Both the position numbers and the translations under genes were made by a program. The notes beneath the pieces are model-generated. The model worked only from the letters and a program-made list of their open reading frames with translations. It ran no database searches and was not told the origin of the DNA. Positions 3,098 through 60,800 of a stretch of 64,000 bases of DNA are shown here, one piece after another. The DNA lies in IMG/VR virus record IMGVR_UViG_3300030060_006228, positions 1 to 64,000 of that record; one strand, 5' to 3'. The first letter of the stretch is position 1, and each line of letters begins with the position of its first letter. The DNA comes from a virus.

Positions 3098-3702
3098 TGT
3101 GGATTAATCACGAAAAAGAATTTGTTTTTATCGCTGTCCCGAAGTGCGGTTCAACCTCTATTGCACACTCACTTGGGTTTACTTATTTCGACAATAAACC
3201 AAAAATCTATCATGCGTCTATTAATGATGTGAGAGAATTTGATAATAAGACGACTCATTATTTTAGTTTTGGTTTTGTTAGAAATCCTTTTGATCGTTTG
3301 GTTTCTGTTTTTATGAATGGACACCAAGATAGAGGACATTTACTGGAATGGGGAGGTGGCTTAGAATCCTATGACGGAAACTTTGAGAGGTTCGTAAAAG
3401 ATTTTCCAGATTCAAAATGGGTGAGTTCTACACACTTTTTACCCTGTTCATATTTCGTCACAACAGACGAAAATGTTTCCGTGGATTTTGTGGGGAAATA
3501 CGAAAACCTAAAATCCGATTTTGAAATGATTAGTGAAAGATTCAATATCAATTCAGAATTGGGTATTCATCATAAATCACAGAGAGACCGTGATTATAGA
3601 AAATACTATGATAATGAAATGATAGAGATTGTCTCTACATATTATGCAGACGATCTTGAAAACTTTGGTTATTCATATGATGGGGATTATACCAATGAAT
3701 AA
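3097..3702 (+). CDS. sulfotransferase family protein
   Basis: 201 residues. The N-terminal FIAVPKCGSTSIAHSLG (residues 11-27) is the 5'-phosphosulfate-binding loop of PAPS-dependent sulfotransferases. FGFVRNPFDRLVSVF (residues 58-72) is the 3'-phosphate-binding motif with Arg62 and Ser70. The length and the C-terminal region fit the Sulfotransfer_2-type families, which sulfate carbohydrates. No signal peptide is present, so it would act in the cytoplasm. It is followed directly by a glycosyltransferase-like gene, so sulfation of a sugar on host surface polymer or virion is plausible, but the acceptor is unknown. Confidence 0.82.
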   Translation: MWINHEKEFVFIAVPKCGSTSIAHSLGFTYFDNKPKIYHASINDVREFDNKTTHYFSFGFVRNPFDRLVSVFMNGHQDRGHLLEWGGGLESYDGNFERFVKDFPDSKWVSSTHFLPCSYFVTTDENVSVDFVGKYENLKSDFEMISERFNINSELGIHHKSQRDRDYRKYYDNEMIEIVSTYYADDLENFGYSYDGDYTNE

Positions 3703-4375
3703 AAAATGTCTAATATTATCTCATGTTTGGATCTTGGATAGTCAAAGTTACAAGAAAGATGTTTTAGACTTTACAGTTAATTACTTTAGAAAACATAATC
3801 CAGATTTGTACATAATTCTAACGGGACATGGAGAACCTCCACATAATGAAACCCTTTCTATGTGTGACTATATCCACTGGACTGATTTTGATGAAACTGA
3901 AATCGGAAAGGGACATCCTAAACTTGTTCGTCACGCACTAGAACACGCAAAAGAAAAGGGATTCGATAAAGTTCTCAAACAAAGAGGGGATTGTATAAAC
4001 GCAGAACCAAATATACATGACGCTTTTGATAGTTTGATGGGAGACAAGAAAATGTTGCTTACAAGTGAACATGGAGTTCTTGGTGATCTGTGTATGTACG
4101 GAGATTTGGATCTTTTTCTGGAAGGTTGGAACTTAGAAAAGTGGGATACCTCCCTAGACGGAATGGACAACTTTAATAATACTTTTTCAAATCACGATAA
4201 GATTAAATGGACGAGTATTAATGAAATGAAGTGGGTTTACCTAGATCCATATTGGGAAGAAATAAACACTAGAGAAACTTTATCTAACTTTTTAGATAAT
4301 AATTTCAATTACGAAAATTACATGTGGTGGAGTAGAGTTTCTCATCGCGCCCAGTCTTGGCCTTTCCATGAATAG
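3695..4375 (+). CDS. possible glycosyltransferase-like protein
   Basis: About 226 residues from ATG 3695, which overlaps the stop of the sulfotransferase gene. The N-terminus (KCLILSHVWIL) looks like the first strand of a Rossmann-type domain. The middle FDKVLKQRGDCI resembles the strand plus acidic motif seen in polysaccharide glycosyltransferases of the WavE type. I do not see an unambiguous DxD motif, so the call rests on general resemblance and on the neighbouring sulfotransferase. It could be another nucleotide-sugar or surface-sugar enzyme. Confidence 0.45.
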   Translation: MNKKCLILSHVWILDSQSYKKDVLDFTVNYFRKHNPDLYIILTGHGEPPHNETLSMCDYIHWTDFDETEIGKGHPKLVRHALEHAKEKGFDKVLKQRGDCINAEPNIHDAFDSLMGDKKMLLTSEHGVLGDLCMYGDLDLFLEGWNLEKWDTSLDGMDNFNNTFSNHDKIKWTSINEMKWVYLDPYWEEINTRETLSNFLDNNFNYENYMWWSRVSHRAQSWPFHE

Positions 4376-5946: not shown

Positions 5947-6019
5947 GGGCTTGACGCGGATGGCATTAGCAGCACCGCTTATAACGGTGTCATCGTGGGT
6001 TCGAGTCCCACCAGGCCCA
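5947..6019 (+). tRNA. tRNA-Ile (anticodon UAU)
   Basis: Acceptor GGGCTTG (5947-5953) pairs with CAGGCCC (6012-6018, one G-U). T stem GTGGG/CCCAC encloses TTCGAGT. Anticodon stem CACCG/CGGTG encloses CTTATAA, giving UAU, which reads AUA. The D arm is weak, with only two clear pairs. The discriminator is A and CCA is not encoded. Confidence 0.85.
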
Positions 6020-6041
6020 CTTAATCTTATGGAGAATCATT

Positions 6042-6995
6042 ATGTCAAAATGTCCCTTTTCAGTTTTTCATAGTAAAAAAAATCGATTAGAGGAAGAGAA
6101 ACCCTCAATCATAGAAGACTATACCGACAATCCATATTTGCGGGTTCGTAGGGTACATCCCACACAAGGTTCTCGTATTGTAAAGGCAAACTCTAAACTC
6201 AAAGGCCCAGATGGACAATGTGAAACTCTAGAGTGGCCTAGAAAAGATGCACTGAGTAGATGCGGACCTTATGTACATGCGAACCAAATGGGTTGGTGGT
6301 TGTTCCCCGCTGTGGATATTGATATGACATACCACGGCGATGGTGCATGGGATGTTCATGAATACACAAAGTTCGACGCGGATGCGGAACAGAAACTATA
6401 TGATGATCTTCCAAAGTATGAATACAAAACGGAAGATGGTAAGACTGAAGTTTTCAGATCCCAACCAAGAGCCCATGTTAATGCTGGTTTAGCAGATAAA
6501 AATATTATTCAGATCTGGACTGGTTGTATGTTTAGAACTCCTCCGGGATGGTGTCTTCTTATTAGAAGTCCTGTCAATGCATGTGAAAGTTATAATAGAC
6601 CATATCACATTCAAGAGGGAGTTATTGAATCTGACTGGATGGACTATGACATCTGGATGAATGTGGTGGTAAACAGAACTCATGAAAAAATTTCTCTTCG
6701 GCAGGATATGTGGCCACCCCTTGCACAAATTATTCCCGTCAGGAGAGAAGCATACGAAGCAAATTGGGATGTCGATGATCGAGTAATCACGGCAGATGAT
6801 CCTGAGTGGGCTTCGTGGCAAGATTATAATTTTAAGAAGTGGGAACGTCAAAATGAAAAGGACAGTAAGACCTATTTCAAAGAGCGTTCAGTACAAAAGC
6901 CTAACAAAGATGTCTCTAAGGTTCTGAAGATTCGAGATAAGTATCGAGAACAGCGAGACAATCACCAAACAAAGAAGAATAAGAATGATAGTTGA
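6042..6995 (+). CDS. DUF6065-like protein (copy 1)
   Basis: 317 residues. The central part, NQMGWWLFPAVDIDMTYHG, then IQIWTGCMFRTPPGWCLLIR, then ESDWMDYDIWMNVVVNR, and a later PLAQIIPV follow the layout of DUF6065 proteins, which are found in T4-like phages and bacteria. The 290-residue protein at 12132 has the same order of blocks, so the two are paralogues. The fold is probably beta-rich. The activity is unknown. The C-terminal 60 residues are charged and likely disordered. The next gene starts within its last four codons. Confidence 0.6.
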   Translation: MSKCPFSVFHSKKNRLEEEKPSIIEDYTDNPYLRVRRVHPTQGSRIVKANSKLKGPDGQCETLEWPRKDALSRCGPYVHANQMGWWLFPAVDIDMTYHGDGAWDVHEYTKFDADAEQKLYDDLPKYEYKTEDGKTEVFRSQPRAHVNAGLADKNIIQIWTGCMFRTPPGWCLLIRSPVNACESYNRPYHIQEGVIESDWMDYDIWMNVVVNRTHEKISLRQDMWPPLAQIIPVRREAYEANWDVDDRVITADDPEWASWQDYNFKKWERQNEKDSKTYFKERSVQKPNKDVSKVLKIRDKYREQRDNHQTKKNKNDS

Positions 6996-8127
6996 AGACG
7001 GAATTAAACTAGATTATTCAGATGTCCTGATTCGTCCAAAGAGAAGTTCCCTAGTCAGTAGAAAAGATGTTTCTCTGACTAGAGACTTTTCCTTTCGGTG
7101 GGCAACTTTCATTGATACATGCATTCCACTTTGGTCTGCAAATATGGACACAACCGGAACTCTTGAAACAGCAAAGGCTTTTCAACACAGTATGTTCGGT
7201 GATGACTGGAAAGAAAGTGGAGTTGCAAATGTAGCAGTACATAAGCACTATACTTTAGATGAATGGAAAACGATTTGTTATGGTGGGGACACGAAAGAAG
7301 AAGCACAGTCCCTTCCAGAATATCCACTTCGTGCAGGTAATATGGCATTCAGTTGCGGAATGACAGATAGAGATTTTTCTCTTCTAGAGGAAATCGTAAA
7401 ACTAAATGAAACTACAGATCTTGGTTTGAGATATGTTTGCATCGATGTTGCAAATGGATATACTCAATCATTTATAGAATATATTAAAAAGGTTCGCAAA
7501 TGTGTAGGTACGAACATGGCGATCATCGCGGGGAATGTAGTAACCAGAGAGATGGCTGAAGCACTTCTTCTGGCAGGTGCGGATATTATCAAGGTTGGAA
7601 TCGGTCCGGGATCCGCCTGCACCACACGAAAAGTGGCAGGAGTAGGATATCCACAATTATCGGCAGTAGCAGAATGCGCCGATGCAGCACATGGACTGGA
7701 CGGTCATATCATGGCGGATGGTGGATGCAACTCTCCGGGTGACGTAGCAAAGGCGTTTGCAGCAGGTGCCGATTTCGTGATGATCGGTGGTATGTTCGCA
7801 GGACACGACGAGTCAGGTGGAGATGCGATCTACGATATCGATACCGGAGAATGCACCCACAAGACGTTCTATGGGATGTCTAGCAAGACTGCTATGGAGA
7901 AGCACAGCGGTGGTGTAGCAACGTACAGAGCGTCTGAGGGACGCTCTGTGACGCTCCCGTACCGTGGGAGTATCAACGGAACCCTGAATCATATATTGGG
8001 TGGTGTTCGTTCTGCGTGTACCTATGTCGGTGCAAATCGGCTGAAAGATCTGCCTAAGTGCGCCTCTTTTATTAGGGTAAACAATCAGTATAATACGGTG
8101 TTTGAGAATGTTACCCATAGTGAATAA
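6985..8127 (+). CDS. guaC: GMP reductase
   Basis: 380 residues of the IMP dehydrogenase/GMP reductase family. The substrate loop VGIGPGSACTTRKVAGVGYP places the catalytic Cys at residue 212, followed by QLSAVAECADAAHG, MADGGC and IGGMFAGHDESGG. The C-terminal flap FYGMSSKTAMEKHSGG with YRASEGRSVTLPYRG and ILGGVRSACTYVGA is the GMP reductase pattern (GuaC), not IMP dehydrogenase, and there is no CBS insert. The enzyme converts GMP to IMP and ammonia using NADPH. In the phage it would recycle guanine nucleotides toward IMP and adenine nucleotides. ATG 6985 overlaps the preceding gene. Confidence 0.93.
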   Translation: MIVEDGIKLDYSDVLIRPKRSSLVSRKDVSLTRDFSFRWATFIDTCIPLWSANMDTTGTLETAKAFQHSMFGDDWKESGVANVAVHKHYTLDEWKTICYGGDTKEEAQSLPEYPLRAGNMAFSCGMTDRDFSLLEEIVKLNETTDLGLRYVCIDVANGYTQSFIEYIKKVRKCVGTNMAIIAGNVVTREMAEALLLAGADIIKVGIGPGSACTTRKVAGVGYPQLSAVAECADAAHGLDGHIMADGGCNSPGDVAKAFAAGADFVMIGGMFAGHDESGGDAIYDIDTGECTHKTFYGMSSKTAMEKHSGGVATYRASEGRSVTLPYRGSINGTLNHILGGVRSACTYVGANRLKDLPKCASFIRVNNQYNTVFENVTHSE

Positions 8128-8308
8128 CGAAATGATTTTTGCAGTATCTGCCTGTTTTTTCTTTATCGCCAGTTTATCGATTTGGAATAGTGTAATGCAG
8201 GCAAAAGCCATTTATGAATTTAGAGAACTGGTAGAGGATACCAAAAAGAGAATGGCTAAAATGCAAGAGATCCTATATGAAGAATTAGAAAAGAGAGACG
8301 ATGAATAA
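8108..8308 (+). CDS. small membrane protein with coiled coil
   Basis: About 66 residues from ATG 8108 (a TTG at 8102 is also in frame). Residues 9-28 (EMIFAVSACFFFIASLSIW) form a transmembrane helix. The remaining 35 residues are a charged helix with heptad character (FRELVEDTKKRMAKMQEIL). It overlaps guaC by 20 bases and the next gene by 8. Function unknown. It resembles single-span spanin-like or membrane-anchoring proteins only in general form. Confidence 0.55.
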   Translation: MLPIVNNEMIFAVSACFFFIASLSIWNSVMQAKAIYEFRELVEDTKKRMAKMQEILYEELEKRDDE

Positions 8309-9038
8309 AATTCATTTAATATCTTACTCGGAAGATAGGATGTTTAGTTTCGCAGAATCACGAAAGAGAGTACAGAAAGAGGCTGAAGATTTCGGTGAGT
8401 TTGATAGTATAACTTTGTGCAATGAAAATGATTTGGATGATTCAGTAAAGGAAATTGTAAAACCCACTCTCGAACAACCGAGAGGTGCTGGATACTGGAT
8501 CTGGAAACCATTCATAATACAGAAGAAACTCAAAGAACTGGATGAGGGTGATTTCCTAATTTATATGGATATGGGAATAACTCTCAATAAACACGCAAAG
8601 AAAAACTTTTACGATTTACTTGGTCGGGCACAGAGTTCGAATCACGGGACTATTTGTTTTGAGATAGGACACACGGAAAAACATTGGTGTGTTAAAGAAA
8701 TATTTGAACACCTAGAGTGTTCGGATAACGAAACAATAAAAAATACAGATCAGTACTACGCCGGACTTCTCATTTTCTGTAAGAATAAAAACTTGATTAA
8801 TTTGATAGACGAGTGGTGTGATATTGCATATAATAATCCCATGTTATTCAGTGACGAGTTAGCAGACGATCAGGATTTTGAATTCAAAGAAAACAGACAC
8901 GATCAAGCAGTGTTTAGTGTTCTGAGGAAAACCAAAAATGTTCAACCCATCATTTATGATCCAATCGCTTATGATCAGTGGGAACTTCGAAAATCATATT
9001 ACGAAGCAGCATTTTGGAATTTACATCTAAGGAGTTAA
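8301..9038 (+). CDS. glycosyltransferase-like protein
   Basis: 245 residues. It contains RGAGYWIWKPFIIQKKL near residue 60, then GDFLIYMDMGITL near residue 83 and NRHDQAVFSVLRKT near residue 200. This set recurs in a group of uncharacterised polysaccharide-type glycosyltransferases. The strand ending in YMDMG takes the place of the usual DxD metal site, so catalysis is uncertain. It has no membrane segment. With the sulfotransferase and the protein at 3695 it suggests modification of sugars. Confidence 0.62.
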   Translation: MNKIHLISYSEDRMFSFAESRKRVQKEAEDFGEFDSITLCNENDLDDSVKEIVKPTLEQPRGAGYWIWKPFIIQKKLKELDEGDFLIYMDMGITLNKHAKKNFYDLLGRAQSSNHGTICFEIGHTEKHWCVKEIFEHLECSDNETIKNTDQYYAGLLIFCKNKNLINLIDEWCDIAYNNPMLFSDELADDQDFEFKENRHDQAVFSVLRKTKNVQPIIYDPIAYDQWELRKSYYEAAFWNLHLRS

Positions 9039-9039
9039 T

Positions 9040-9417
9040 ATGAATAGGAAACCTACAATCTATGTTGCAGGACCGATGCGTGGATATGAAAATTATAATT
9101 ATCCCGCATTTGATGAAAGAGCAAAAATTCTAGAGAGATATGGATGGGCTGTAGTGAACCCAGCACAATTAGACCGACAAGAAGGAAAGCCTATGTCGGA
9201 TCCGATGGCGTTTTCTCCGGATACTAATTATGAGGATCATGAATTTATGCGTTCGGCACTTAAGAGAGATATGGACGCACTGTGTGATGAGTGTACTGCC
9301 ATTTATATGATGCGTGAATGGGAAAAGAGCCGTGGTGCAAAGGCAGAGTGGCACTTAGCAAAGGCACTTGGACTTGATATTTACTATGAAGTGCCTCTTC
9401 CGATTTATCCCGAATAA
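9040..9417 (+). CDS. DUF4406 nucleoside deoxyribosyltransferase-like protein
   Basis: 125 residues. It begins TIYVAGPMRGYENYNYPAFD, the hallmark of DUF4406, a family related to nucleoside 2-deoxyribosyltransferases. ERYGWAVVNPAQLDRQ and a late RGAKAEWHLAKALGLDIYY complete the fold. Relatives exchange or cleave the base of deoxynucleosides or their phosphates. The phage versions are not characterised as far as I know. It is the last gene before the RNA-rich segment and lies two bases behind the glycosyltransferase-like gene. Confidence 0.75.
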   Translation: MNRKPTIYVAGPMRGYENYNYPAFDERAKILERYGWAVVNPAQLDRQEGKPMSDPMAFSPDTNYEDHEFMRSALKRDMDALCDECTAIYMMREWEKSRGAKAEWHLAKALGLDIYYEVPLPIYPE

Positions 9418-9431
9418 TTTTGTTTTAGTTG

Positions 9432-9459
9432 TTGCAGTGGCGGTTACGGTTGGTATAAT
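9432..9459 (+). promoter_or_regulatory. sigma70-type promoter
   Basis: TTGCAG (9432-9437), a 16-base spacer and TATAAT (9454-9459) with an extended-like TGG in front. It lies behind the DUF4406 gene and points into the structured segment and tRNA-Lys. The bases after the -10 box resemble those after the promoter at 10338. Confidence 0.65.
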
Positions 9460-9465
9460 TAAAGC

Positions 9466-9721
9466 ATGTCAACGGGACAGCACAACAAACAACACAAGGA
9501 GACACTCAGATGCGAGAGTACTGAGAATATTAAGCATGGATTATATTAAAGGTTATGTTATTATATTGAAGTCTCCTACCGCAGACACGGCCCCGCAAGG
9601 GTAGACTTAAACTAGGGAGAGTTTGACATCGTTTTCCCTCCGAAACAAACGATGTTAACATGGGTTGGGGGAAACCCCAACGCCATGAATTCAGGAGATC
9701 GTTTCTCCGACAATCAGGAAT
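9466..9721 (+). ncRNA. densely structured untranslated RNA ahead of tRNA-Lys
   Basis: About 255 bases without a credible gene. Hairpins follow one another: AAGTCT/AGACTT (9569/9603), ACATCGTTT/AAACGATGT (9626/9647), a 12-pair hairpin CATGG-GTTGGGG capped by GAAA (9659-9687) and GGAGA/TCTCC (9694/9704). A good ribosome site precedes only a four-codon ORF, MREY, at 9510-9524. The segment is either a processed leader of the tRNA transcript or an independent noncoding RNA. I cannot match it to a known family. Confidence 0.5.
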
Positions 9722-9794
9722 GCCTCCGTAACTCAGTTGGTAGAGTAGCGGACTTTTAATCCGCGAGTCGCTGGTTCGAGCCCAGCCGGGGGCA
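9722..9794 (+). tRNA. tRNA-Lys (anticodon UUU)
   Basis: Perfect cloverleaf: acceptor GCCTCCG/CGGGGGC (one T-G), D stem ACTC/GAGT, anticodon stem GCGGA/TCCGC around CTTTTAA, T stem GCTGG/CCAGC around TTCGAGC. Discriminator A, no encoded CCA. Reads AAA (and AAG by wobble). Confidence 0.95.
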
Positions 9795-9828
9795 CTTCTC
9801 ACACGGTTCTTTATTGGAGATTTTTATT

Positions 9829-9999
9829 ATGAAACACAAACTAGCAAATCTTTGCTACGGACTCGGGTTCGCGTCCATCGCTCTTTCCGCTTATGCGTAC
9901 TCCTCTGCTGGAGTCGATCAAGCAACGTATGTGGGACTTTGGGTTCCTTCATTCTTCCTCGTAGGATTCTTCTTTGATAAGTTGCACGCCAATGATTGA
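9829..9999 (+). CDS. 56-residue two-span membrane protein
   Basis: Starts at ATG 9829 with GGAGA eight bases upstream. It has two hydrophobic segments, about residues 8-25 (NLCYGLGFASIALSAYAY) and 33-50 (TYVGLWVPSFFLVGFFF), with a basic N-terminus. It overlaps the next gene by 8 bases, and the next gene also encodes a membrane-associated protein, so the pair may act together. Function unknown. Confidence 0.6.
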   Translation: MKHKLANLCYGLGFASIALSAYAYSSAGVDQATYVGLWVPSFFLVGFFFDKLHAND

Positions 10000-10354
10000 T
10001 AAACAACTACAAAGAAACTCTCTCGGAGTCATTGGACTCGGTGCTTTCTGTGGTTCCATCATGCAAGCAGCCGCAGGTGAATTTGAGAATGCAATTGTTC
10101 TTGGTATGATTGCGCCTAGTATGTTTGCCATTCGTTCAGATATTCCTTCTCTTGAAATGAGTCGTGACATTGATGATCGAGAAAACTCCATCTATCAAAG
10201 TATGGAATACAACGAGCGTGAGTGCGACACTCGCATTACCGATATGGATCGTGAAATTCACAGCCGTATCGATGACGTTGAACGCCAGATGGAAAACGAA
10301 GTTCGAGAAATTTATTCAGAAATGTCCAACAACAATGTTGACATCACTGATTGA
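9992..10354 (+). CDS. membrane-associated protein with long coiled coil
   Basis: 120 residues from ATG 9992. Residues 10-50 are hydrophobic (GVIGLGAFCGSIMQ, then NAIVLGMIAPSMFAI) and may form one or two spans. Residues 60-112 are an acidic and basic heptad region (RITDMDREIHSRIDDVERQM) predicted as coiled coil. It is probably membrane-anchored with a cytoplasmic or periplasmic rod. No homologue is recognised. The promoter at 10338 overlaps its last codons. Confidence 0.58.
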   Translation: MIDKQLQRNSLGVIGLGAFCGSIMQAAAGEFENAIVLGMIAPSMFAIRSDIPSLEMSRDIDDRENSIYQSMEYNERECDTRITDMDREIHSRIDDVERQMENEVREIYSEMSNNNVDITD

Positions 10355-10365
10355 TAGAGTATAAT
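10338..10365 (+). promoter_or_regulatory. sigma70-type promoter
   Basis: Consensus TTGACA (10338-10343), 16-base spacer, consensus TATAAT (10360-10365), inside and just after the end of the coiled-coil gene. It drives the winged-helix gene at 10455 and possibly the tmRNA region behind it. Confidence 0.75.
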
Positions 10366-10454
10366 TAATGCATAGTCGAGACGGGACAGTTAACGGTGAT
10401 GTCCAGAGTTCTCAAGTCTAATTTGTTCACCGTAAGTTTACAGGAGTTTGCATA
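10366..10454 (+). promoter_or_regulatory. structured 5' leader of the winged-helix gene
   Basis: An untranslated leader of about 85 bases in which ACGGTGA (10393-10399) can pair with TCACCGT (10427-10433). The ribosome site CAGGAG follows at 10441. The first 25 bases repeat the sequence that follows the promoter at 9432 (ATTAA-GCAT, then ACGGGACAG). Confidence 0.45.
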
Positions 10455-10727
10455 ATGAACTGCAAGACCATGTCCAAGAAGCGTAAGGTAATCAACTACC
10501 TTTACAACGGTAACGGCCTCACCGCTAACGAAGCCAAGAGTCGGTTTGGTGTTTCAAACCTTCGCGCCACTATCTCTGACATCCGTGATATGGTGGAAGC
10601 CCACGGTAACTGGGAGATCACCAGCGAGACTACCAAGACTGGTAAGACTCGCTACTACATGGAGGACACCCATCCGGGTACTCGTTCCTTCGGTTTCGAC
10701 AGCGAAGGCCGTCGTTTCGCTCTCTGA
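10455..10727 (+). CDS. winged helix-turn-helix protein
   Basis: 90 residues. KKRKVINYLYNGNGLTANEA, then KSRFGVSNLRATISDIRDMV, form a helix-turn-helix with recognition helix near residue 35. A beta wing follows (WEITSETTKTGKTRYYM). Small proteins of this type are common in T4-like phages and probably bind DNA as local regulators. It has its own strong promoter and structured leader and sits directly before the tmRNA region. An autoregulatory role is possible but not shown. Confidence 0.7.
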   Translation: MNCKTMSKKRKVINYLYNGNGLTANEAKSRFGVSNLRATISDIRDMVEAHGNWEITSETTKTGKTRYYMEDTHPGTRSFGFDSEGRRFAL

Positions 10728-10743
10728 GTGAAAACAACTCCGG

Positions 10744-10777
10744 GTACTTTGGGGGTTTCCCCCATCGTACTCTTTTA
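10744..10777 (+). terminator. hairpin after the winged-helix gene, possible terminator
   Basis: GTAC and GGGGG (10744-10755) pair with CCCCC and GTAC (10759-10770) around TTT, followed by TCTTTTAC. It lies 17 bases behind the stop. The T run is interrupted, so it may be a weak terminator or a processing hairpin for the RNA that follows. Confidence 0.45.
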
Positions 10778-10784
10778 CAACTGA

Positions 10785-11049
10785 ATAACATATATGCGGA
10801 AGTCATGAGCCGCGTATAGGACGGTGACTGAATATTGTTCGTCATGTGATAAAAGGTACTGTCTTCCCTGTAGTGGGGTGCTGATGCTCAAATGAGTGAA
10901 GTAGCGAGTAACTAACGCAAGGTAGGTCTGAGTAGGGTACTAATCGCCTAGCGTGAACCCGAAAAGTGGTGGTAAATGGTAATCCACCCCGTCCACGAAT
11001 TACTGTCTGAGGGGAGGCGAAGCGAAAGCATCTCGCCTCCCTTCGAGAC
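10785..11049 (+). ncRNA. structured untranslated segment upstream of the tmRNA
   Basis: About 265 bases with no credible ORF and many self-complementary pieces: TATATGCGG/CCGCGTATA (10791/10810), GGTGG/CCACC (10968/10984), and a strong nine-pair hairpin GGGAGGCGA/TCGCCTCCC (11012/11033) with an outer GTCT/AGAC. I tested it by eye against RNase P RNA, 6S, SRP RNA and group I intron cores and saw no match. It could be a separate noncoding RNA or a long tmRNA precursor leader. Confidence 0.45.
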
Positions 11050-11059
11050 ATATATAAAA

Positions 11060-11355
11060 CTGGTATTGATGAAGACGGAATAAAATCTAAACAAGACGGG
11101 AGTTCGATTCTCCCCGCCTCCACCAGAGTTACCCTTGCATGTAGTATAGAAGCAAGACGTAATAAAACCAAAGAGAAGATTTGTGAGGGTAACTCTGATG
11201 GGGGCGAACGGAATAGATTGGTAGAAAGTAGTGAAGTTGGAGATACCCGAGAAGGCAACCTACTCGCAAATCGCGGTTGTAAAAATTAACTGGCGCAAAC
11301 AATTTTGCCCTTGCTGCCTGAGCAGCGGAGATTCACCCACTTGTCAACAGAACGG
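11060..11355 (+). ncRNA. ssrA: circularly permuted (two-piece) tmRNA
   Basis: The 3' acceptor half is encoded first. T stem GGGAG/CTCCC encloses TTCGATT (11098-11114), then CGCCTCC, discriminator A and an encoded CCA ending at 11125. The 5' half starts with GGGGGCG at 11200, which pairs with CGCCTCC (one G-T). Helix P2 forms between TAGATT (11214-11219) and AATCTA (11084-11089). A pseudoknot, CGAG/CTCG (11248/11263) with CAACC/GGTTG (11256/11275), precedes the tag ORF at 11295-11321, which encodes ANNFALAA and a TGA. A perfect 11-base inverted repeat (AGAGTTACCCT, 11125 and 11186) brackets the discarded linker. The outer ends, 11060 and 11355, are approximate. Confidence 0.93.
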
Positions 11356-11362
11356 GTGATGG

Positions 11363-11393
11363 AAAACGGGGACGAAAGTTCTCGTTTTTCTTT
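11363..11393 (+). terminator. rho-independent terminator of the tmRNA
   Basis: AACGGGGAC (11365-11373), GAAA loop, GTTCTCGTT (11378-11386): nine pairs with two G-T. It runs into TTTTTCTTTA. It lies shortly behind the tag half of the tmRNA. Confidence 0.85.
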
Positions 11394-11435
11394 ATACATA
11401 CTATGTTATTTCATTACTTTTTATGGAGGTGTATA

Positions 11436-11654
11436 ATGGATTTTAATTCTGAGTTATGGGAAAACCTAAAACCATCCGACAGCGTGATTCGAGGGTTGAA
11501 GGCAAGACTTAAATATTGCAGTCAAGACGTAATTTGCACTCCGGCAAATAAATGTGCCTGTGATAAAATGCTTGAAGATCTGGAAGACTCCGAAGAGTGG
11601 ATCAACTCTCTTCCGGGTGAAGCAAGTACTTGCGAAACTTCAGATAGAGATTGA
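11436..11654 (+). CDS. small Cys-containing protein, unknown function
   Basis: 72 residues from ATG 11436 with a strong GGAGGT eight bases upstream. It contains four clustered cysteines (CSQDVICTPANKCACDK, residues 28-44), which could bind a metal, and an acidic C-terminal half. No family recognised. The promoter for the next gene overlaps its stop codon. Confidence 0.55.
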   Translation: MDFNSELWENLKPSDSVIRGLKARLKYCSQDVICTPANKCACDKMLEDLEDSEEWINSLPGEASTCETSDRD

Positions 11655-11679
11655 CAACCTTAAATAACAGAGGTATAAT
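11651..11679 (+). promoter_or_regulatory. sigma70 consensus promoter
   Basis: TTGACA (11651-11656), 17-base spacer, TATAAT (11674-11679): a perfect host-type promoter. The ATG at 11682 is only two bases after the -10 box, so a transcript starting at the usual distance would begin inside that ORF and would serve the gene at 11785. Confidence 0.8.
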
Positions 11680-11681
11680 AC

Positions 11682-11852
11682 ATGGGTGATAAGCATGGTG
11701 CTGGTAAAGGTGATCGTTACCGACCAGTAGATCAAGATCGTTATAGAGAAAACTACGAAAAGATTTTTGGAAAGGCAAACAACAATGGAAAAGATTCAAA
11801 TCGTAAGACTAACAACGGGCGAAGAACTTCTCGCAAAGGCGACAGTAAATGA
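11682..11852 (+). CDS. short conserved protein with KGDRYRPVD motif
   Basis: 56 residues, too short for most gene calls. The part GKGDRYRPVDQDRYRENYEK, followed by IFG, resembles a short protein that recurs in T4-like phages (pattern KG-KYRPV-KEKYD-NY-RIFG). The basic C-terminal 25 residues overlap the next gene by 68 bases and are probably not conserved. It starts two bases after the TATAAT box, so it must be translated from an upstream transcript. Function unknown. Confidence 0.55.
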   Translation: MGDKHGAGKGDRYRPVDQDRYRENYEKIFGKANNNGKDSNRKTNNGRRTSRKGDSK

Positions 11853-12117
11853 AGACAAGACTACAATCACCATCAAGGATGTAGCAATTCTTATCCCTGC
11901 TGGTGAAGGTAAACTTGCATTCGCTCCTTGGTGTCCATACAGTGATGTAGCAGATGGTGTGGAGATTGGTATGGAACATATCATGTTCACTGCTTCTCCT
12001 CAGTCTGAACTTGAACAGCAGTATATCTCCGCTATTAGTGGACTCGCTGTTCCACAGGAAAAGAAGATTGCAACACCCGGAGATTTCATGGCGGGTGATC
12101 TGAAACTTACTAAATGA
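11785..12117 (+). CDS. LSm-like conserved phage protein
   Basis: 110 residues from ATG 11785 (GGAAAGG upstream). An earlier TTG at 11767 is possible. EKIQIVRLTTGEELLAKATV at the start, then IKDVAILIPAGEGKLAFAPW and GMEHIMFTASPQSELEQQYI, are typical of a conserved T4-like cyanophage protein with an Sm-like beta barrel. By fold it may bind RNA, but no function is established that I know of. Confidence 0.6.
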   Translation: MEKIQIVRLTTGEELLAKATVNEDKTTITIKDVAILIPAGEGKLAFAPWCPYSDVADGVEIGMEHIMFTASPQSELEQQYISAISGLAVPQEKKIATPGDFMAGDLKLTK

Positions 12118-12131
12118 TTAGGATGTGAATT

Positions 12132-13004
12132 ATGAATGAAAATGGTGAAGGCGTTTGTCCCGCGTTCAGTATGATTAATGGTGAAACATTTTTCCCTACA
12201 GAACTAAATGATGAATATGATCTTAATGTAATTGCATATGAAATCAATCCCGAAATGAAACTCACCTCTGGATCAGGACAGAGGGAGTGGATTAAAAACA
12301 CGGGTGCTGAATATGACGACGAAGGAAAACTAGTTGGGTTTAGTGGGTATGCAAAGAAATGTCTTCCTCTCATTGCAGCAAATACCCTTGGATGGCAGGT
12401 GCTATCCGATCAGAGATATGAAGTCACATGGAATGGTGGACCTAACATCAATGATATTACTATCGTTTCTGAAGATAACAATCCAAAACTAAGTAGTCAC
12501 TTCGGAACTGGTACAGTAACTTGGCATGTTGGTTATGTATTCTATACAACCAAAGGAAACTTCATGTACTGTAAAGGTCCAACCAATCATTTCAAGCACG
12601 GGATCCAAGCGTGTGAGGGTTTGATCGAAACGGACTGGTTGCCGTTTACATTTACTATGAACTGGATGATAACCAAACCAAATGAAACTATAGTATTTGA
12701 AAAGGGTGAACCCATCTGTCAGTTGTTCCCATATCCAAAGGAATATGTCGAAAACTTTGATGCAAAGATTCGCACTAAAGATAGTATGCCTACTGAGTTG
12801 AAGAAATTGTACGACTATTGGTGTCACTCTAGAGATGTATTCAACAAAGCGAAGAGAGAGCCTGGTGATTGGGAAGGTAATTACTTCAAGGGTGAAGTTC
12901 ACGACAACACCAACTGCGAAGACTTAGGAAGAAAGCATTATACAACAATTAAAATGCCTAAGTTTAAAGTTCAGTCTTCCCTCGATTCATATGAGTCTGA
13001 TTGA
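12132..13004 (+). CDS. DUF6065-like protein (copy 2)
   Basis: 290 residues. The core has LGWQVLSDQRYEVTWNGG, then GTVTWHVGYVFYTTKGN, then IETDWLPFTFTMNWMITKPN and EKGEPICQLFPYP, the most characteristic DUF6065 block. It is a paralogue of the protein at 6042, with the same block order but clearly diverged. It ends six bases before tRNA-Arg. The molecular role is unknown. Confidence 0.68.
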   Translation: MNENGEGVCPAFSMINGETFFPTELNDEYDLNVIAYEINPEMKLTSGSGQREWIKNTGAEYDDEGKLVGFSGYAKKCLPLIAANTLGWQVLSDQRYEVTWNGGPNINDITIVSEDNNPKLSSHFGTGTVTWHVGYVFYTTKGNFMYCKGPTNHFKHGIQACEGLIETDWLPFTFTMNWMITKPNETIVFEKGEPICQLFPYPKEYVENFDAKIRTKDSMPTELKKLYDYWCHSRDVFNKAKREPGDWEGNYFKGEVHDNTNCEDLGRKHYTTIKMPKFKVQSSLDSYESD

Positions 13005-13010
13005 TTTACT

Positions 13011-13084
13011 GCGCCCGTAACTCAATTGGATAGAGTAGCGGCCTTCTAAGCCGCAAGTTGCTGGTTCGAGTCCAGCCGGGCGTG
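13011..13084 (+). tRNA. tRNA-Arg (anticodon UCU)
   Basis: Acceptor GCGCCCG/CGGGCGT (G-T closing pair), D stem ACTC/GAGT, anticodon stem GCGGC/GCCGC around CTTCTAA, T stem GCTGG/CCAGC around TTCGAGT. Reads AGA. No encoded CCA. Confidence 0.95.
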
Positions 13085-13097
13085 TTGGAGTTTAATA

Positions 13098-13346
13098 ATG
13101 CCACATGTAATAACAAAGTCATGCGTAGGAGTAAAGGACGGATCTTGTGTAGATGTCTGTCCAGTTGATTGTATTCATTCTGATGAGGACTCTGATCAAT
13201 TTTACATAGATCCGGACACCTGCATTGATTGCGGACTGTGTGTAGATGAATGTCCAGTCAATGCAATTTATAGTGAAGAAGACCTTACTCCAGATCTTCA
13301 AAAATACATACAAATCAATTTGGATTATTTTGAAAACAAGACTTGA
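13098..13346 (+). CDS. 7Fe-type ferredoxin
   Basis: 82 residues with cysteines at 9, 17, 21, 25, 42, 45, 48 and 52. The spacing C-x7-C-x3-CP-x2-C, then C-x2-C-x2-C-x3-CP, is that of seven-iron bacterial ferredoxins (FdxA/Azotobacter FdI type), which hold one 3Fe-4S and one 4Fe-4S cluster. [20 protein letters not shown] at the N-terminus is highly conserved in that group. It is a cytoplasmic low-potential electron carrier. No partner enzyme is evident beside it, so a host oxidoreductase is the likely partner. It has a good GGAG ribosome site behind tRNA-Arg. Confidence 0.9.
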
Positions 13347-13714
13347 TGGAATCTAGAATAATAAAAACTATAGATTTTGCTAGGGACATTACTATTCAAA
13401 ACCCCCGTCCAAAAAAGCATACTTCAATCATTCTCAGAAAGAATGAAATAGTTTCGGTTGGAACAAACCTAAATAGAACGCATCCTCTTGCTAAAAAGTA
13501 TGGTTATCTTTTTGATGAAGTGCATTCTGAGTTAGACGCTCTTCTGCGATATAAAGGACCGAAAGATAATCTGATTCTCATAAATTATAGGTTTAACAGG
13601 TTTGGTGATATGAGGATGTCCAAGCCTTGCAGAAAATGTACCCCTTGGTGTGTGGGTGTATTTGATAAAATTTGGTATACTACTAATCAAGGTATGAACG
13701 AACTAGAATTTTAA
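13346..13714 (+). CDS. cytidine/deoxycytidylate deaminase-like protein
   Basis: 122 residues from ATG 13346 (TGATG overlap with the ferredoxin gene). EVHSELDALLRY carries the zinc ligand His and catalytic Glu of the HxE motif, and KPCRKCTPW carries the PCxxC pair of the cytidine deaminase superfamily. The family deaminates C or dCMP, tRNA adenosine or related bases. The substrate cannot be told from these motifs, but the short length and phage context favour nucleotide metabolism. Confidence 0.72.
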   Translation: MESRIIKTIDFARDITIQNPRPKKHTSIILRKNEIVSVGTNLNRTHPLAKKYGYLFDEVHSELDALLRYKGPKDNLILINYRFNRFGDMRMSKPCRKCTPWCVGVFDKIWYTTNQGMNELEF

Positions 13715-13725
13715 GGAGAAGTTCA

Positions 13726-13944
13726 ATGTATTCACTCGGAGAGTCTGTAATAAATAAAAATAACCATAAGATGGCTACTGTAATATGTACAGATTCGCCT
13801 ATTGATGAAAATGTTGATAGCAGTGAACAAACTGTTCGCATTCGTTATGAAGAAAGTGGACTAGAGGAATGGGTTCCTGTTTCATCAGTGGCAAACTTTC
13901 TCCTCGAAGTTGAGCCGGGTGAGGGAAATTACCTTGCAGAGTAA
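13726..13944 (+). CDS. small protein, unknown function
   Basis: 72 residues, starting ATG 13726 behind AAGGAG. The sequence (SLGESVINKNNHKMATVICT, then RIRYEESGLEEWVPVSS) looks like a small beta-barrel of the SH3 or Tudor kind. No family is assigned. It lies in the same run of plus-strand genes as the ferredoxin and deaminase. Confidence 0.55.
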   Translation: MYSLGESVINKNNHKMATVICTDSPIDENVDSSEQTVRIRYEESGLEEWVPVSSVANFLLEVEPGEGNYLAE

Positions 13945-13951
13945 ATGTCCT

Positions 13952-14092
13952 ATGGTAAAATACAAGTCGCATATGATATGCGGGGTGCTTGCGATCTTGT
14001 GCCCTTTCTCTTTGATTGTGACAATACCGGCATTTTTTGGTGCTAAAAAGTTGAGGAAAAGAAATGAACATCAACGAACAGAAGTGGATTGA
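13952..14092 (+). CDS. 46-residue membrane protein
   Basis: From ATG 13952. It is basic at both ends with one hydrophobic span (MICGVLAILCPFSLIVTIPA) at about residues 8-27. The ribosome site is weak, so translation may be coupled to the previous stop eight bases upstream. A second small frame from ATG 13945 is possible in the same place but has less protein-like character. Confidence 0.45.
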   Translation: MVKYKSHMICGVLAILCPFSLIVTIPAFFGAKKLRKRNEHQRTEVD

Positions 14093-14462
14093 CAGTATGA
14101 CGGATAAAGCAGAAAAAGGCTTTAGTTATTACGTTTGGGAAAACAGAATGCCTGTTTCTCCCAATGATGTCATTCGTGTTTCTGGTAATCATGAATGTTT
14201 CGTCACAGGGGACACAATCAAACCACAGGATGATGCACATTGGACAGACGAGTTTGACGCATGGGTTTCTATCCGTGGATATCAAATGATTCAGAACGCT
14301 CAGTCTACAGGTGAACTCTCTAATAATAGAGAATGGGAACTTATGTTCGCAGAGTGGTACGCGAAGGATGAATCTATCGCGGGACTAGAAGAAGCGTGGC
14401 ACAGTGAACGCATGGCAAAGTCTGCTGATGACGCAGGATGTTTCGACGCAATAGACGATTAA
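14064..14462 (+). CDS. 132-residue hypothetical protein
   Basis: Starts at ATG 14064 behind GAGGAAAAG and overlaps the previous small gene by 29 bases. It is soluble, acidic and rich in Trp (SYYVWENRMPVSPNDVIRVS, then MFAEWYAKDESIAGLEEAWH). No recognised domain. It ends five bases before tRNA-Leu and is the last plus-strand protein gene before the converging structural genes. Confidence 0.55.
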   Translation: MNINEQKWIDSMTDKAEKGFSYYVWENRMPVSPNDVIRVSGNHECFVTGDTIKPQDDAHWTDEFDAWVSIRGYQMIQNAQSTGELSNNREWELMFAEWYAKDESIAGLEEAWHSERMAKSADDAGCFDAIDD

Positions 14463-14467
14463 TCTAA

Positions 14468-14551
14468 GCGGTCGTGGCGGAATGGCAGACGCAACGGACT
14501 TAAAATCCGTCGAGGGTTAACCTCATGTGGGTTCGAGTCCCACCGACCGTA
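14468..14551 (+). tRNA. tRNA-Leu (anticodon UAA)
   Basis: Class II tRNA with a long variable arm. Acceptor GCGGTCG/CGACCGT, anticodon stem ACGGA/TCCGT around CTTAAAA, variable arm with GAGG/CCTC, T stem GTGGG/CCCAC around TTCGAGT. Reads UUA. No encoded CCA. Confidence 0.95.
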
Positions 14552-14555
14552 TTTA

Positions 14556-14629
14556 CAGAGTGTAGCACAGTTTGGTAGTGCGTTGCGTTTGGGACGCAAA
14601 GGTCGTAGGTTCAAATCCTATCACTCTGA
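14556..14629 (+). tRNA. tRNA-Pro (anticodon UGG)
   Basis: Acceptor CAGAGTG/CACTCTG perfect, D stem GCAC/GTGC, anticodon stem TTGCG/CGCAA around TTTGGGA, T stem GTAGG/CCTAT (four pairs plus one mismatch) around TTCAAAT. Reads CCA. It ends two bases before the stop of the convergent minus-strand gene. Confidence 0.93.
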
Positions 14630-21123: not shown

Positions 21124-21160
21124 AGGGGGGAGCAGAAATGCTCCCCCCTTTTCTTTTTAT
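21124..21160 (+). terminator. strong rho-independent terminator after gp32
   Basis: Perfect 11-pair stem AGGGGGGAGCA/TGCTCCCCCCT with a GAAA loop (21124-21149), followed by TTTTCTTTTT. It ends the gp33-gp32 unit and separates it from the convergent tape-measure-like gene, whose stop lies within the T tract. Confidence 0.95.
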
Positions 21161-22467
21161 CCTAGTTTTTGACGCCACGTTGGAATCGTGTGTATCTCTC
21201 TTAATGAATCATTTATTCTTGTTGCAGAACTTGCTGATCCCATAGAATTAGGACTATCTACTTTTGGATTGGGTGGGGTTGTTATTGGTAACGGAAGCAT
21301 AGACGGTGGATTTTCTTGTCTAGAGTTTGCTGCTTCAGTTTTTATTGATTGGTTTTCCATCGCACTCATTGTGGCATTTTTAGAAAGATTAGCATTTGCT
21401 TTTTCTATGGTATTTGCTTCTGCTAAAATTTGAGGAACTTTATCTAGAGGGGTTACAATTTCAGGTCCTGCTTCACCGACAATTGCTTTTGTTGCACTAT
21501 CGACATAACCACCCTCTGCAAAAAAGGTGTATTCCTCTTTAGCCTGGTTGTTGATTATTCTTTCGATTTCTCTCTTCGGAACTTTCATTATGTTTGTGAT
21601 GAAAGTTTTATTATTTGTTGGTGACTCAGAATCTATAAAATCTGTGTCTGAGTATGTCGTGAGAGGAGAGTAATTTACACTAGTATCATTCCGGTTTAAA
21701 ACTTTGGTGTTTTTGTTTTCAAAGTTTTTGAACGATGTTTTTGCAGAGTTTACTTTATCCATACTGCTTACGTTTTTAATATTAGATACAGATCGATCTA
21801 TATTATTTTTATAAAATTCGTTCTTATGCTCTCTATTTTCATTTAAGATACTATTAACTCTGTTTTGGTTACTATTGTTTGTGTTTGAAAATGAGATAGG
21901 CGAGTCGTGTTCTTGTGTAAATGTGTCGCCTGAAATCTTGTTTAAAGTGTTTGAATTCAAAGACTTCTCGAATTCCATAAAACTATTTTCGATAGATTCG
22001 ACGGGATTCAGAACATCTTTAGTTTTTACTTCTGGAATATTCACCGGAGTATCTAAAAACAAGTTTACTGATTTTGATATATCTTCCTTGGTAAACGAGG
22101 GAGAGTACTCTCTCATAGAATAGTTCTTGTCAGCCTCTCTTGTGTTTCTTATAGTGTCGTATTTTTCATTCGTAATAAAATTATTTACTACCTCAGTGTT
22201 GTTGATACTATCAAGTCTTTTATTTATTTTCTCAATTGAAGTCGTGAGTGCATCAAGAGAAAATAAATCTCCATTGAAGGGAGTTACTTTACTTTCGCTG
22301 GTGGATACGAAACTGTTTTCTTCTGGCGAATCTAGTTCGGGTATCTCTATTTCTCTAGAAGGGTGAAACATATTCTCAGAAGATATAGAGGTAGAGAAGT
22401 CGAGAGAAGTTGGATTCTCCTTTATGAAGTTAGATATTTCTTCTAGTTTAGAAGTTCTATTGTCCAC
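21157..22467 (-). CDS. tape-measure-like tail protein (gp29 position)
   Basis: 436 residues from GTG 22467. The long N-terminal part is polar, Asn/Ser-rich and probably helical. The C-terminal third contains FAEGGYVDSATKAIVGEAGP followed by EIVTPLDKV, a motif at the end of many phage tape-measure proteins. Its place right behind a gp26-type gene with a -1 frameshift matches the chaperone-then-tape-measure order of long-tailed phages. T4 gp29 has 590 residues. If this is the ruler, the tail should be shorter than that of T4. Its GTG overlaps the end of the frameshifted ORF by 11 bases. Confidence 0.6.
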   Translation of the reverse strand: MDNRTSKLEEISNFIKENPTSLDFSTSISSENMFHPSREIEIPELDSPEENSFVSTSESKVTPFNGDLFSLDALTTSIEKINKRLDSINNTEVVNNFITNEKYDTIRNTREADKNYSMREYSPSFTKEDISKSVNLFLDTPVNIPEVKTKDVLNPVESIENSFMEFEKSLNSNTLNKISGDTFTQEHDSPISFSNTNNSNQNRVNSILNENREHKNEFYKNNIDRSVSNIKNVSSMDKVNSAKTSFKNFENKNTKVLNRNDTSVNYSPLTTYSDTDFIDSESPTNNKTFITNIMKVPKREIERIINNQAKEEYTFFAEGGYVDSATKAIVGEAGPEIVTPLDKVPQILAEANTIEKANANLSKNATMSAMENQSIKTEAANSRQENPPSMLPLPITTPPNPKVDSPNSMGSASSATRINDSLREIHTIPTWRQKLG

Positions 22468-22654
22468 GGTTTCTATTTCCTGTCTTTATCTTTAGGTTTT
22501 CTTCTTCGATATAACCGATTAGCATCGATAAGTATATATCTCTTTCCCACGGAATAAGTGTTTCTAATTCATGCAGACTATATTTGTAGTGATGTGTTAA
22601 GTTCCAGCAAACGGAGTAAAATTCCCCCAGTCCTAGATGACTGAGGGTTAGCCG
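22457..22654 (-). CDS. gp51-like ORF read by -1 frameshift from gp26
   Basis: An open frame of 65 codons beginning at CGG (22654) and ending TAG (22459-22457). It has no ATG, GTG or TTG before its conserved part. THHYKYSLHELETLIPWERD, then IYLSMLIGYIEEEN, resembles the small tail-assembly chaperone domain encoded behind gp26-type genes in T4-like phages. It lies in the -1 frame of gp26 and joins it at a slippery T-TTT-TTC. The fusion would be 303 residues. By analogy with lambda gpG-gpGT, the extension would contact the tape measure. An independent start at a CTG cannot be excluded. Confidence 0.75.
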   Translation of the reverse strand, partial: RLTLSHLGLGEFYSVCWNLTHHYKYSLHELETLIPWERDIYLSMLIGYIEEENLKIKTGNRNRGQ

Positions 22655-22660
22655 AAAAAA
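22624..22660 (-). promoter_or_regulatory. -1 ribosomal frameshift signal
   Basis: Read on the minus strand: slippery heptamer T-TTT-TTC (22660-22654) in the correct X-XXY-YYZ phase of gp26, a six-base spacer that includes the gp26 stop TAA, then a nine-pair stem CCCTCAGTC/GACTGGGGG (22647-22639 and 22632-22624) with a six-base loop. AGGAG lies just upstream of the heptamer. All parts of a classical signal are present. Confidence 0.85.
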
Positions 22661-23367
22661 TCTCCTAACCCCGACAGCACTATTTCTCTGTCAACCCCAT
22701 CATTTGTTGTATAGTTTACTTTATGTTCCAGTCTGGGTGAAGTAACAAAGAAGTTTAAAATGGCGTCAAATTGTTTTTTAGTCATAGCATCCACGAACTT
22801 ACTTAACTCTTCTGTTCCTATTTCGTCTGCACTTTCCTTTGCTTCCTTTGTCTCTACTGAATCTATGCAATGTAGAATCATGTCGTAGAAGTCAGATGAA
22901 TTTGTGGTGTCTATATCACCACCAAATTTTTCAAGTATTCTTATAGAGGGATATTTCATGTTTACAATAACATCATCGCTTATTTTTATCGAATTGGTGT
23001 GACTTTCTGTTCTCTTCAGTTCTATTTCTTCTAGGTTAACAGAACATTCGATCTTTTCACCCGTATGTGGACAGATGATGATGGGATCCACTACTTCACC
23101 AACCGATTTTGATCGTATTTGGACAAACAGATACTCTATATCGAAAATAGGAAGAACAGAAGCATCGTTTACAGATTCAACACATGATTCTATGATGTCT
23201 TTGATTGCAAGCATGATATCATTCTTGGATTGGGTATTCTGTGCAATCAATAATATTTTTTCTTCTTTCACCAAGAATGGTCTAAATCGAGTCTTCTCCC
23301 CGGTGGAGGGAATCGTCACATCATACTTGGGAGTTTTTTCTAACAATAAAGATGATATAGTGTTCAT
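22648..23367 (-). CDS. 26: baseplate hub assembly protein gp26
   Basis: 239 residues. IPSTGEKTRFRPFLVKEEKI near residue 20, then IIESCVE and FDIEYLFVQIRSKSVGEVVD near residue 85, are the gp26 signature (T4 gp26, 208 residues). The later half is acidic and ends DFFG. The protein acts in hub or tape-measure assembly and may be a chaperone absent from the final virion. It ends in a -1 frameshift signal leading into the ORF at 22457. Ribosome site AGGAG precedes its ATG. Confidence 0.88.
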   Translation of the reverse strand: MNTISSLLLEKTPKYDVTIPSTGEKTRFRPFLVKEEKILLIAQNTQSKNDIMLAIKDIIESCVESVNDASVLPIFDIEYLFVQIRSKSVGEVVDPIIICPHTGEKIECSVNLEEIELKRTESHTNSIKISDDVIVNMKYPSIRILEKFGGDIDTTNSSDFYDMILHCIDSVETKEAKESADEIGTEELSKFVDAMTKKQFDAILNFFVTSPRLEHKVNYTTNDGVDREIVLSGLGDFFG

Positions 23368-59382: not shown

Positions 59383-60705
59383 ATGGCCAGACCAAATGTC
59401 ACAGTAATAATAGACGATCAAAGTTTTGTAATCGCAGGTACTGAAGCGGGATCAGTAACCAGAGGCGGTTTAGTAAGCGCCCACGGTCTTGTCCAGGCGG
59501 TAGGATTTACCGGAGAACGCAAAACTGGTTTGATGACAATCGGTAGTATTTCAGACTGGGTAAATAGACTTAAGGTTAACGAACCAACTGGTGTTCAAGG
59601 CGAGGCTGATGGGTTTTCTGGTGTAGTTACTCCCGGAGGAACTGCACAGAGATGGCCTGCTGGACCTACCGGAGCATGGGCAGGTGAGTGGTGGGCAGTC
59701 CACAACTTCCTCCAGTACGGTGGAGTAGCAGTTGTTGGTGGATCTGGTGATGCCACTGCGGTATCATCTTCGACTCCAACATCTACAAACTCTCCTCTAC
59801 ACAGCACAGACATTCCTTTAGATGTTGTCTTCTGTGGTAATACCTACAATAGCGGTGTCGCTTCTAACTCCGCAGCCACCCGAGGTGGACTTGAATTCTT
59901 CGGAACCCCGTCCGCACTTCAGGTTAACACTGCAATTAATATCGCAACCACAAGAGGCGATTGTATTGCATTCGTTCCAATGGGTGTTACGAAAGCAGAT
60001 AAAGCAACTGCTGCAACGATTTCTACTTGGGACAACGGAGCAATCACTCCACCCGCATCCGAGTTCGTAAGTGTTGTCTTCGGTAACAAAAAGCACCTTG
60101 GTGTTAGTAGAGACACTACAGAAGGTACTGAGGGACTAGTAACCACAAACTGTTCAGCAGATGCTGCCGGTTGTGCTGCTAGAACAGACAGAGACGCCGC
60201 TCCTTGGTTCTCTCCTGCTGGTACACGAAGAGGACAGATCCTTGACGTTGTTCGAATGCAGGATACACCAACCGATGCAGAGATGGATGTCATGTATGAC
60301 AATGGTATTAATCCAATCATGTCTTTCCCCGGCGAAGGAACCATGTTGTTCGGAGACAAGACAAAGAAAGTAGGAACGAGTACACTCAGTCGAATTAATG
60401 TTTCTCGACTGTTCATTTTCCTTAAGAAAACGGTTGGTGCTGCTGCAAGATCCAAACTCTTTGAGTTCAATGACGAAGACACAAGAGCGTCGTTCGTCAA
60501 CGCAGTAACCCCTCTAATGGAAAATATTCGTGCAAGAAGAGGTATATTTGACTTCCGAGTTGTTTGTGACGAATCAAACAACAACGCTGCTGTTATTGAT
60601 TCAAACCAATTCGTTGCTGATGTATTCATCAAACCAAGCAAGTCGATTAACTTCATCAAACTTACCTTTACTAACAAGAACACGGGGGATGACCTGGGAA
60701 ACTAA
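59383..60705 (+). CDS. 18: tail sheath protein gp18 (compact)
   Basis: 440 residues, much shorter than T4 gp18 (659). RDAAPWFSPAGTRRGQILDV, then PTDAEMDVMYDNGINPIMSF, PGEGTMLFGDKT and LSRINVSRLFIFLKKTVGAA are the conserved C-terminal core that forms the contracting sheath. The reduced N-terminal outer domains account for the length. The last sense codons, CTG GGA AAC TAA, contain a slippery G-GGA-AAC directly at the stop, which would lead into a 32-codon extension (next entry). Confidence 0.95.
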   Translation: MARPNVTVIIDDQSFVIAGTEAGSVTRGGLVSAHGLVQAVGFTGERKTGLMTIGSISDWVNRLKVNEPTGVQGEADGFSGVVTPGGTAQRWPAGPTGAWAGEWWAVHNFLQYGGVAVVGGSGDATAVSSSTPTSTNSPLHSTDIPLDVVFCGNTYNSGVASNSAATRGGLEFFGTPSALQVNTAINIATTRGDCIAFVPMGVTKADKATAATISTWDNGAITPPASEFVSVVFGNKKHLGVSRDTTEGTEGLVTTNCSADAAGCAARTDRDAAPWFSPAGTRRGQILDVVRMQDTPTDAEMDVMYDNGINPIMSFPGEGTMLFGDKTKKVGTSTLSRINVSRLFIFLKKTVGAAARSKLFEFNDEDTRASFVNAVTPLMENIRARRGIFDFRVVCDESNNNAAVIDSNQFVADVFIKPSKSINFIKLTFTNKNTGDDLGN

Positions 60706-60800
60706 GTAGTGGAGGAGGGGCAACAACGCCTGGAGGAACTCAATTGAATTTCTTTACACAAGGTCCTAACTTCACACCACCAAATACTAGTACACCATAG
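60702..60800 (+). CDS. -1 frame C-terminal extension of the sheath, possible programmed frameshift
   Basis: An open frame of 32 codons in the -1 frame of gp18 that starts at CTA (60702) and ends TAG (60798-60800), filling nearly all of the gap to gp19. It has no own start. The slippery heptamer G-GGA-AAC (60696-60702) is in exact X-XXY-YYZ phase, and a purine-rich GGGGGA lies eight bases upstream like the dnaX stimulator. The peptide starts LSSGGGATTPGGTQ and ends TPPNTSTP, a linker-like sequence. The result would be a 472-residue sheath. No stable downstream stem is obvious. Confidence 0.55.
   Translation, partial: LSSGGGATTPGGTQLNFFTQGPNFTPPNTSTP

Follow-up and report, generated by a model that had tools for sequence, protein, structure and literature searches.

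The gp26 locus of this T4-like phage raises the question of whether the reading frame behind the gp26 stop codon, which corresponds to gp51, is a gene of its own or a second ending of gp26 that is reached by a shift of the ribosome into the -1 frame. The window (the whole stretch of DNA that was analysed, 64 kb of a 67-kb virus record) carries the gp26/gp51 locus on the minus strand. Sequence comparison and a structure model suggest, with a probability of roughly 93%, that gp26 and the -1-frame gp51 are the short and long forms of a tail-assembly chaperone (TAC-N and TAC-NC) made by -1 frameshifting according to the G/GT logic.

Layout of the gp26/gp51 locus

Read on the minus strand, the 3' end of gp26 and the sequence behind it are GGA GAT TTT TTC GGC TAA, CCCTCAGTC, ATCTAG and GACTGGGGG. 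The features of the locus are as follows.

22648..23367, minus strand: gp26 (short form, TAC-N), 239 aa, 0 frame
22661..22674, minus strand: SD-like stretch TCGGGGTTAGGAGA, possible upstream stimulator, from anti-SD pairing energy
22654..22660, minus strand: slippery heptamer T TTT TTC, in phase with gp26
22648..22653, minus strand: 6-nt spacer GGCTAA with the gp26 stop inside
22624..22647, minus strand: stem-loop CCCTCAGTC / ATCTAG / GACTGGGGG, likely downstream stimulator, from the predicted fold
22457..22653, minus strand: -1-frame extension (gp51 domain), 65 codons plus TAG (at 22457), matching phrog_634
21157..22467, minus strand: downstream gene, tape-measure candidate by position, 436 aa, GTG start, 11-nt overlap with the -1 ORF

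The sequence-only reading had described an in-phase T TTT TTC, a six-base spacer containing the stop, a nine-pair stem and a 65-codon -1 ORF lacking a standard start, and all four were recovered: the heptamer lies at 22660-22654 and is followed by GGCTAA, the predicted fold places nine base pairs within 22647-22624, and the -1 ORF has the described length, with no ATG, GTG or TTG in the window's -1 frame upstream of codon 46. This first possible start falls within a conserved block. The combination used as the criterion for -1 frameshifting, an in-phase heptamer with a stem about 5-9 nt downstream, was thus found at the gp26 end. The main ORFs of the window contain 77 in-phase X_XXY_YYZ heptamers in 17,625 codons, and the T TTT TTC of gp26 is the only one among them with an extension of more than 60 codons past the 0-frame stop. 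The expected product is a gp26-gp51 fusion (TAC-NC) of about 303 aa. Elsewhere in the window, five tRNA genes (Ile-TAT, Lys-TTT, Arg-TCT, Leu-TAA and Pro-TGG) are located on the plus strand at 5947-14629.

Protein families and predicted fold

gp26 matched the PF12322 T4_baseplate profile with an E value of 5.5e-58 (196.7 bits, against a curated cut-off of 24.5) and the phrog_150 baseplate hub profile with an E value of 6.6e-60. The -1 extension aligned with positions 60-118 of the 121-position profile phrog_634, 'baseplate hub assembly catalyst', at an E value of 1.6e-18. A tblastn search with the extension at a permissive cut-off matched more than 600 phage records, the best matches being annotated gp51 proteins of cyanophages and a pelagiphage.

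gp26 was modelled with AlphaFold2 (pLDDT 91) and the model compared with solved structures by VIA-align, in which the N-terminal part of gp26 matched 2OB9, the HK97 tail-assembly chaperone (HK97 gp13), at Z 8.0 and 3FGX at Z 7.0, with the third match at 3.1. 3FGX has been described as a phage tail-assembly chaperone (PMC9603447). A Foldseek search of the model against the PDB gave no significant match (E 0.5-0.9), and the assignment to the TAC fold therefore rests on VIA-align; a PDB sequence search found no relative of gp26 and matched no solved TAC. The predicted model supports a TAC fold for the gp26 short form, resembling that of the HK97 chaperone.

Comparison with T4 provided a second line of evidence. 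T4 gp26, like gp26 of the window, belongs to PF12322 and corresponds to the short form, and the C terminus of T4 gp51 is homologous to the -1 extension. A single T4 gene, gp51, carries both a PF12322 domain (3.9e-52) and the C domain of phrog_634 (1.2e-23), and is therefore the short form plus the extension, a genetically fused N+C version. T4 gp26 and gp51 are separate genes that are divergently transcribed. Given the TAC-like gp26 model and the correspondence with T4 gp26 and gp51, the window's two frames most likely encode a TAC-N/TAC-NC pair related by a -1 frameshift.

Conservation of the heptamer and of the -1 frame

Loci from named phages and 80 viral contigs, 97 in all, were compared. 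A single-sequence scan of the viral contigs with gp26 retrieved no relative, whereas an alignment query did. The search for the heptamer required a preceding codon ending in T and TTT as the first Phe codon. In 95 of the 97 loci (92 of them distinct), T TTT TTN lies in phase close to the stop codon of gp26. Its last base was C in 85 of the distinct loci, T in four, A in two and G in one, and no arrangement other than T TTT TTN occurred among them. The heptamer-bearing lineages include the Kyanoviridae cyanophages and the pelagi- and methylophages, as well as Straboviridae (Cronobacter phage S13, Aeh1, VH7D), Menderavirus, Emdodecavirus phiM7 and Pootjesviridae.

The heptamer was absent in two loci, those of Serratia phage Kevin (Ackermannviridae) and Vibrio phage K469, the latter having TAATGATG. 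In phage Kevin (locus L098, about 3640-3870), gp26 ends in GTT TTC ATC TAA with no T TTT TTN, and a gp51-like stretch lies in the -1 frame with no early ATG. Phage Kevin may have a shift site of another type.

Within the gp26 body, only 69% of Phe codons are TTT. A synonymous-codon null gave a log10 P of -34 for the heptamer, a value that ignores shared ancestry and is inflated by the relatedness of the loci. A conserved FF at the gp26 C terminus also accounts for part of the T run.

In the relatives, the -1 frame encodes the protein-conserved motif FFR[ILV].[ML].H..L from the slip site onwards. Arg follows the slip directly in 80 of the 92 distinct loci and is encoded by both CGN and AGA codons; it is followed by I, L or V and, further on, by conserved M/L and His. 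Conservation of the -1 frame thus begins at the first post-slip codon, upstream of most possible starts. These data bear on the possibility that the -1 ORF is untranslated, or that a sequencing error has interrupted what is one in-frame gene. Although the window derives from one metagenomic record, the identical break and heptamer are present in 92 distinct relatives, including isolate genomes, and the extension is conserved as protein, so that this explanation is effectively refuted by conservation.

Does gp51 start on its own?

An alternative is that gp51 is a separate small protein, translated by coupling or reinitiation near the gp26 stop, with the -1 phase being a by-product of the stop/start overlap. 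In many GenBank records gp51 is given its own CDS beginning just past gp26, about half of the relatives have an ATG at post-slip codon 5, and Vibrio phage K469 lacks the heptamer. However, the early ATGs in 73 relatives are essentially without an SD (mean best energy -0.24 kcal/mol at proper spacing), protein conservation runs from the slip codon on, ahead of these ATGs, and the first ATG, GTG or TTG of the window lies well inside the extension. The existing annotations of gp51 also speak against an independent gene: in S-RS29, Mosig and Melnitz-2 they fall mid-domain, and in S-WAM1, S13 and Aeh1 gp51 was left unannotated, while T4 gp51 has the N domain fused on. Relatives whose second ORF has its own start and ribosome site had been named as the observation that would speak against frameshifting; an in-frame early ATG proved frequent in the relatives, but a well-spaced ribosome-binding site almost never accompanies it, and the window has neither. 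Independent translation of gp51 is therefore considered improbable.

Putative stimulatory elements

Among the 92 relatives, the mean anti-SD pairing energy reaches about -6.3 kcal/mol at a position centred 8 nt 5' of the heptamer, compared with +0.5 in the gp26 body. The window showed energies of -5.9 to -6.2 at 5-7 nt and of -7.3 directly beside the heptamer; SD-like pairing that directly adjoins the heptamer is closer than is usual for stimulation of a -1 shift. Conserved Glu-Gly codons coincide with the SD-like element, and the signal may therefore in part be coding.

The predicted stem consists of 9 bp, including one G-U pair, with a 6-nt loop, and begins 6 nt downstream of the heptamer. 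Its predicted energy is -18.3 to -20.3 kcal/mol (z about -3), and against a codon-preserving null the downstream fold of the window gave a z of -4.4. Downstream segments of 57 nt from 91 relatives had a mean z of -2.24 against codon-preserving shuffles, with 65% below -1.64, whereas a control stretch further downstream had a mean z of -0.49. Strength varies among the relatives (the stems of loci L015 and L016 and of phages S13 and RHph_I1_9 are weak), and the stem sequence differs from lineage to lineage. RNAalifold found no single consensus structure in the ungapped relative set, and an Rfam search gave no match. The proposed conservation of the stem therefore holds for its position and strength, and not for a shared fold or covariation.

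The frames could also be joined by slippage of RNA polymerase on the six-T run, which would yield mixed mRNAs. A homopolymer run does lie at the frame junction; however, six Ts make a short run for polymerase slippage, and the run is exactly six in most relatives. The seventh base varies (C, T, A or G) while the X_XXY_YYZ phase is retained, and the SD-like element and a downstream fold beyond that expected from coding are features directed at the ribosome. Polymerase slippage is thus regarded as very unlikely, and a shift of the ribosome remains the preferred reading.

The downstream gene

The gene pair had been placed directly before the tape-measure gene. A large gene does follow gp51, in the window and in the relatives alike, but it matched phrog_23574 (a tape-measure C-terminal stretch) only weakly (E 0.033). 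The downstream gene is accordingly a tape-measure candidate by position only. For phiM7 the match was better, its large gene behind gp51 resembling tape-measure families (phrog_305, E 1.8e-5).

In the window and in loci L014-L017, the gene after gp51 is rich in Asn, Ser and Thr, and it is repetitive in close relatives, for example with NDSIASTNNFSSSS repeats in L016; tape measures do not usually have this make-up. A tape-measure-like GEAGPEIVTPL / PDPEIVTPM motif closes the gene in the window and in L014.

Proposed mechanism and relation to known systems

The signal, its conservation, the coding character of the -1 frame, the homology and the predicted fold were established by sequence analysis. 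The sequence-only reading had concluded that the locus encodes a G/GT-type pair, and this is supported by the conservation of the heptamer, the start-less extension, the SD-like element and the downstream structure, by the HK97-like predicted fold, and by the fused gp51 of T4.

We infer that slippage occurs, together with its efficiency and the binding roles of both domains, as follows. The majority of ribosomes translating gp26 would stop at the TAA one codon past TTT TTC, yielding the short TAC-N. A minority would pause at the heptamer, assisted by the stem-loop that begins 6 nt downstream and by an upstream SD-like pairing at about 8 nt, and would exchange their pairing with T TTT TTC for one with TTT TTT in the -1 frame. 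Translation of 65 further codons would then attach the gp51 domain and give TAC-NC. If the pair works like lambda gpG/gpGT, the tape-measure protein would be coated by a large number of short copies and a few long ones, and recruitment of tail-tube subunits or organisation of the hub would fall to the gp51 domain, after which both would leave.

The slippery site of lambda, G GGA AAG, differs from that of the window, and gp26 resembles HK97 gp13 in predicted fold only, not in sequence. The gpG/gpGT system of lambda and its relatives was described by Xu, Hendrix and Duda (2004, 2014), as reviewed in PMC5009743, in whose model the short form coats the tape-measure protein and the long form links it to tail subunits. 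The same review (2016) considered G-T frameshifting to be widely conserved 'except T4'. A link between T4-type hub assembly and the siphovirus mechanism, as had been proposed for this locus, is supported but is not new, since T4-like tail-assembly chaperone genes were identified by Vladimirov, Gautam and Davidson (2022, Virology 566:9), according to PMC12846349 and PMC10274946. As cited in PMC12846349, the TAC-N genes of that study have poly-T slippery sites, and as far as these accounts go the T4-like TACs share with the window a gp26-type short form, a gp51-type C domain and the poly-T site. In place of frameshifting, some T4-like phages have one gene for the short form and another, fused one for the long form (Vladimirov 2022, via PMC10274946), and T4 itself has this layout, unlike the window. 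The type of chaperone pair was therefore already known from that work, as it is cited, and the present analysis adds its breadth and the SD-like element. In phage Adele (Vandenendeviridae), a -1 shift at a T-rich motif giving TAC-N/TAC-NC has also been proposed, although the motif is GTTTTT and the phage family differs from that of the window (PMC12846349).

We somewhat favour the view that phages of the T4 superfamily other than the T4 branch produce their hub chaperone by means of a frameshift signal with three parts (an SD-like element, T TTT TTN and a stem-loop), and that the two separate genes of T4, gp26 and gp51, are a derived state that replaced it, the frameshift having become fixed in the form of a duplicated and fused gene. 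Frameshifted chaperones would account for T4 having both gp26 and gp51. The GenBank entry 'gp51, baseplate hub assembly catalyst' in cyanophages and relatives most likely represents the C-terminal part of a frameshifted chaperone and not a free small protein; annotators could use the conserved frameshift signal to correct hundreds of records. The results also support a common logic of assembly for tails that contract and tails that do not.

A slippery heptamer at the end of the tail-sheath gene

The tail-sheath gene (59383-60705, plus strand) ends in G GGA AAC TAA, also an in-phase heptamer, with a Gly/Pro-rich -1 extension of 31 codons (site 60696-60800). Among the relatives examined, those with about 53% identity or lower had no such sheath heptamer and extension. 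Both the heptamer and an open extension are retained in L100 (97% sheath identity), L101 (82%) and L102 (81%), the extension sequence differing in the latter two. This site possibly gives rise to a C-terminally extended minor form of the sheath.
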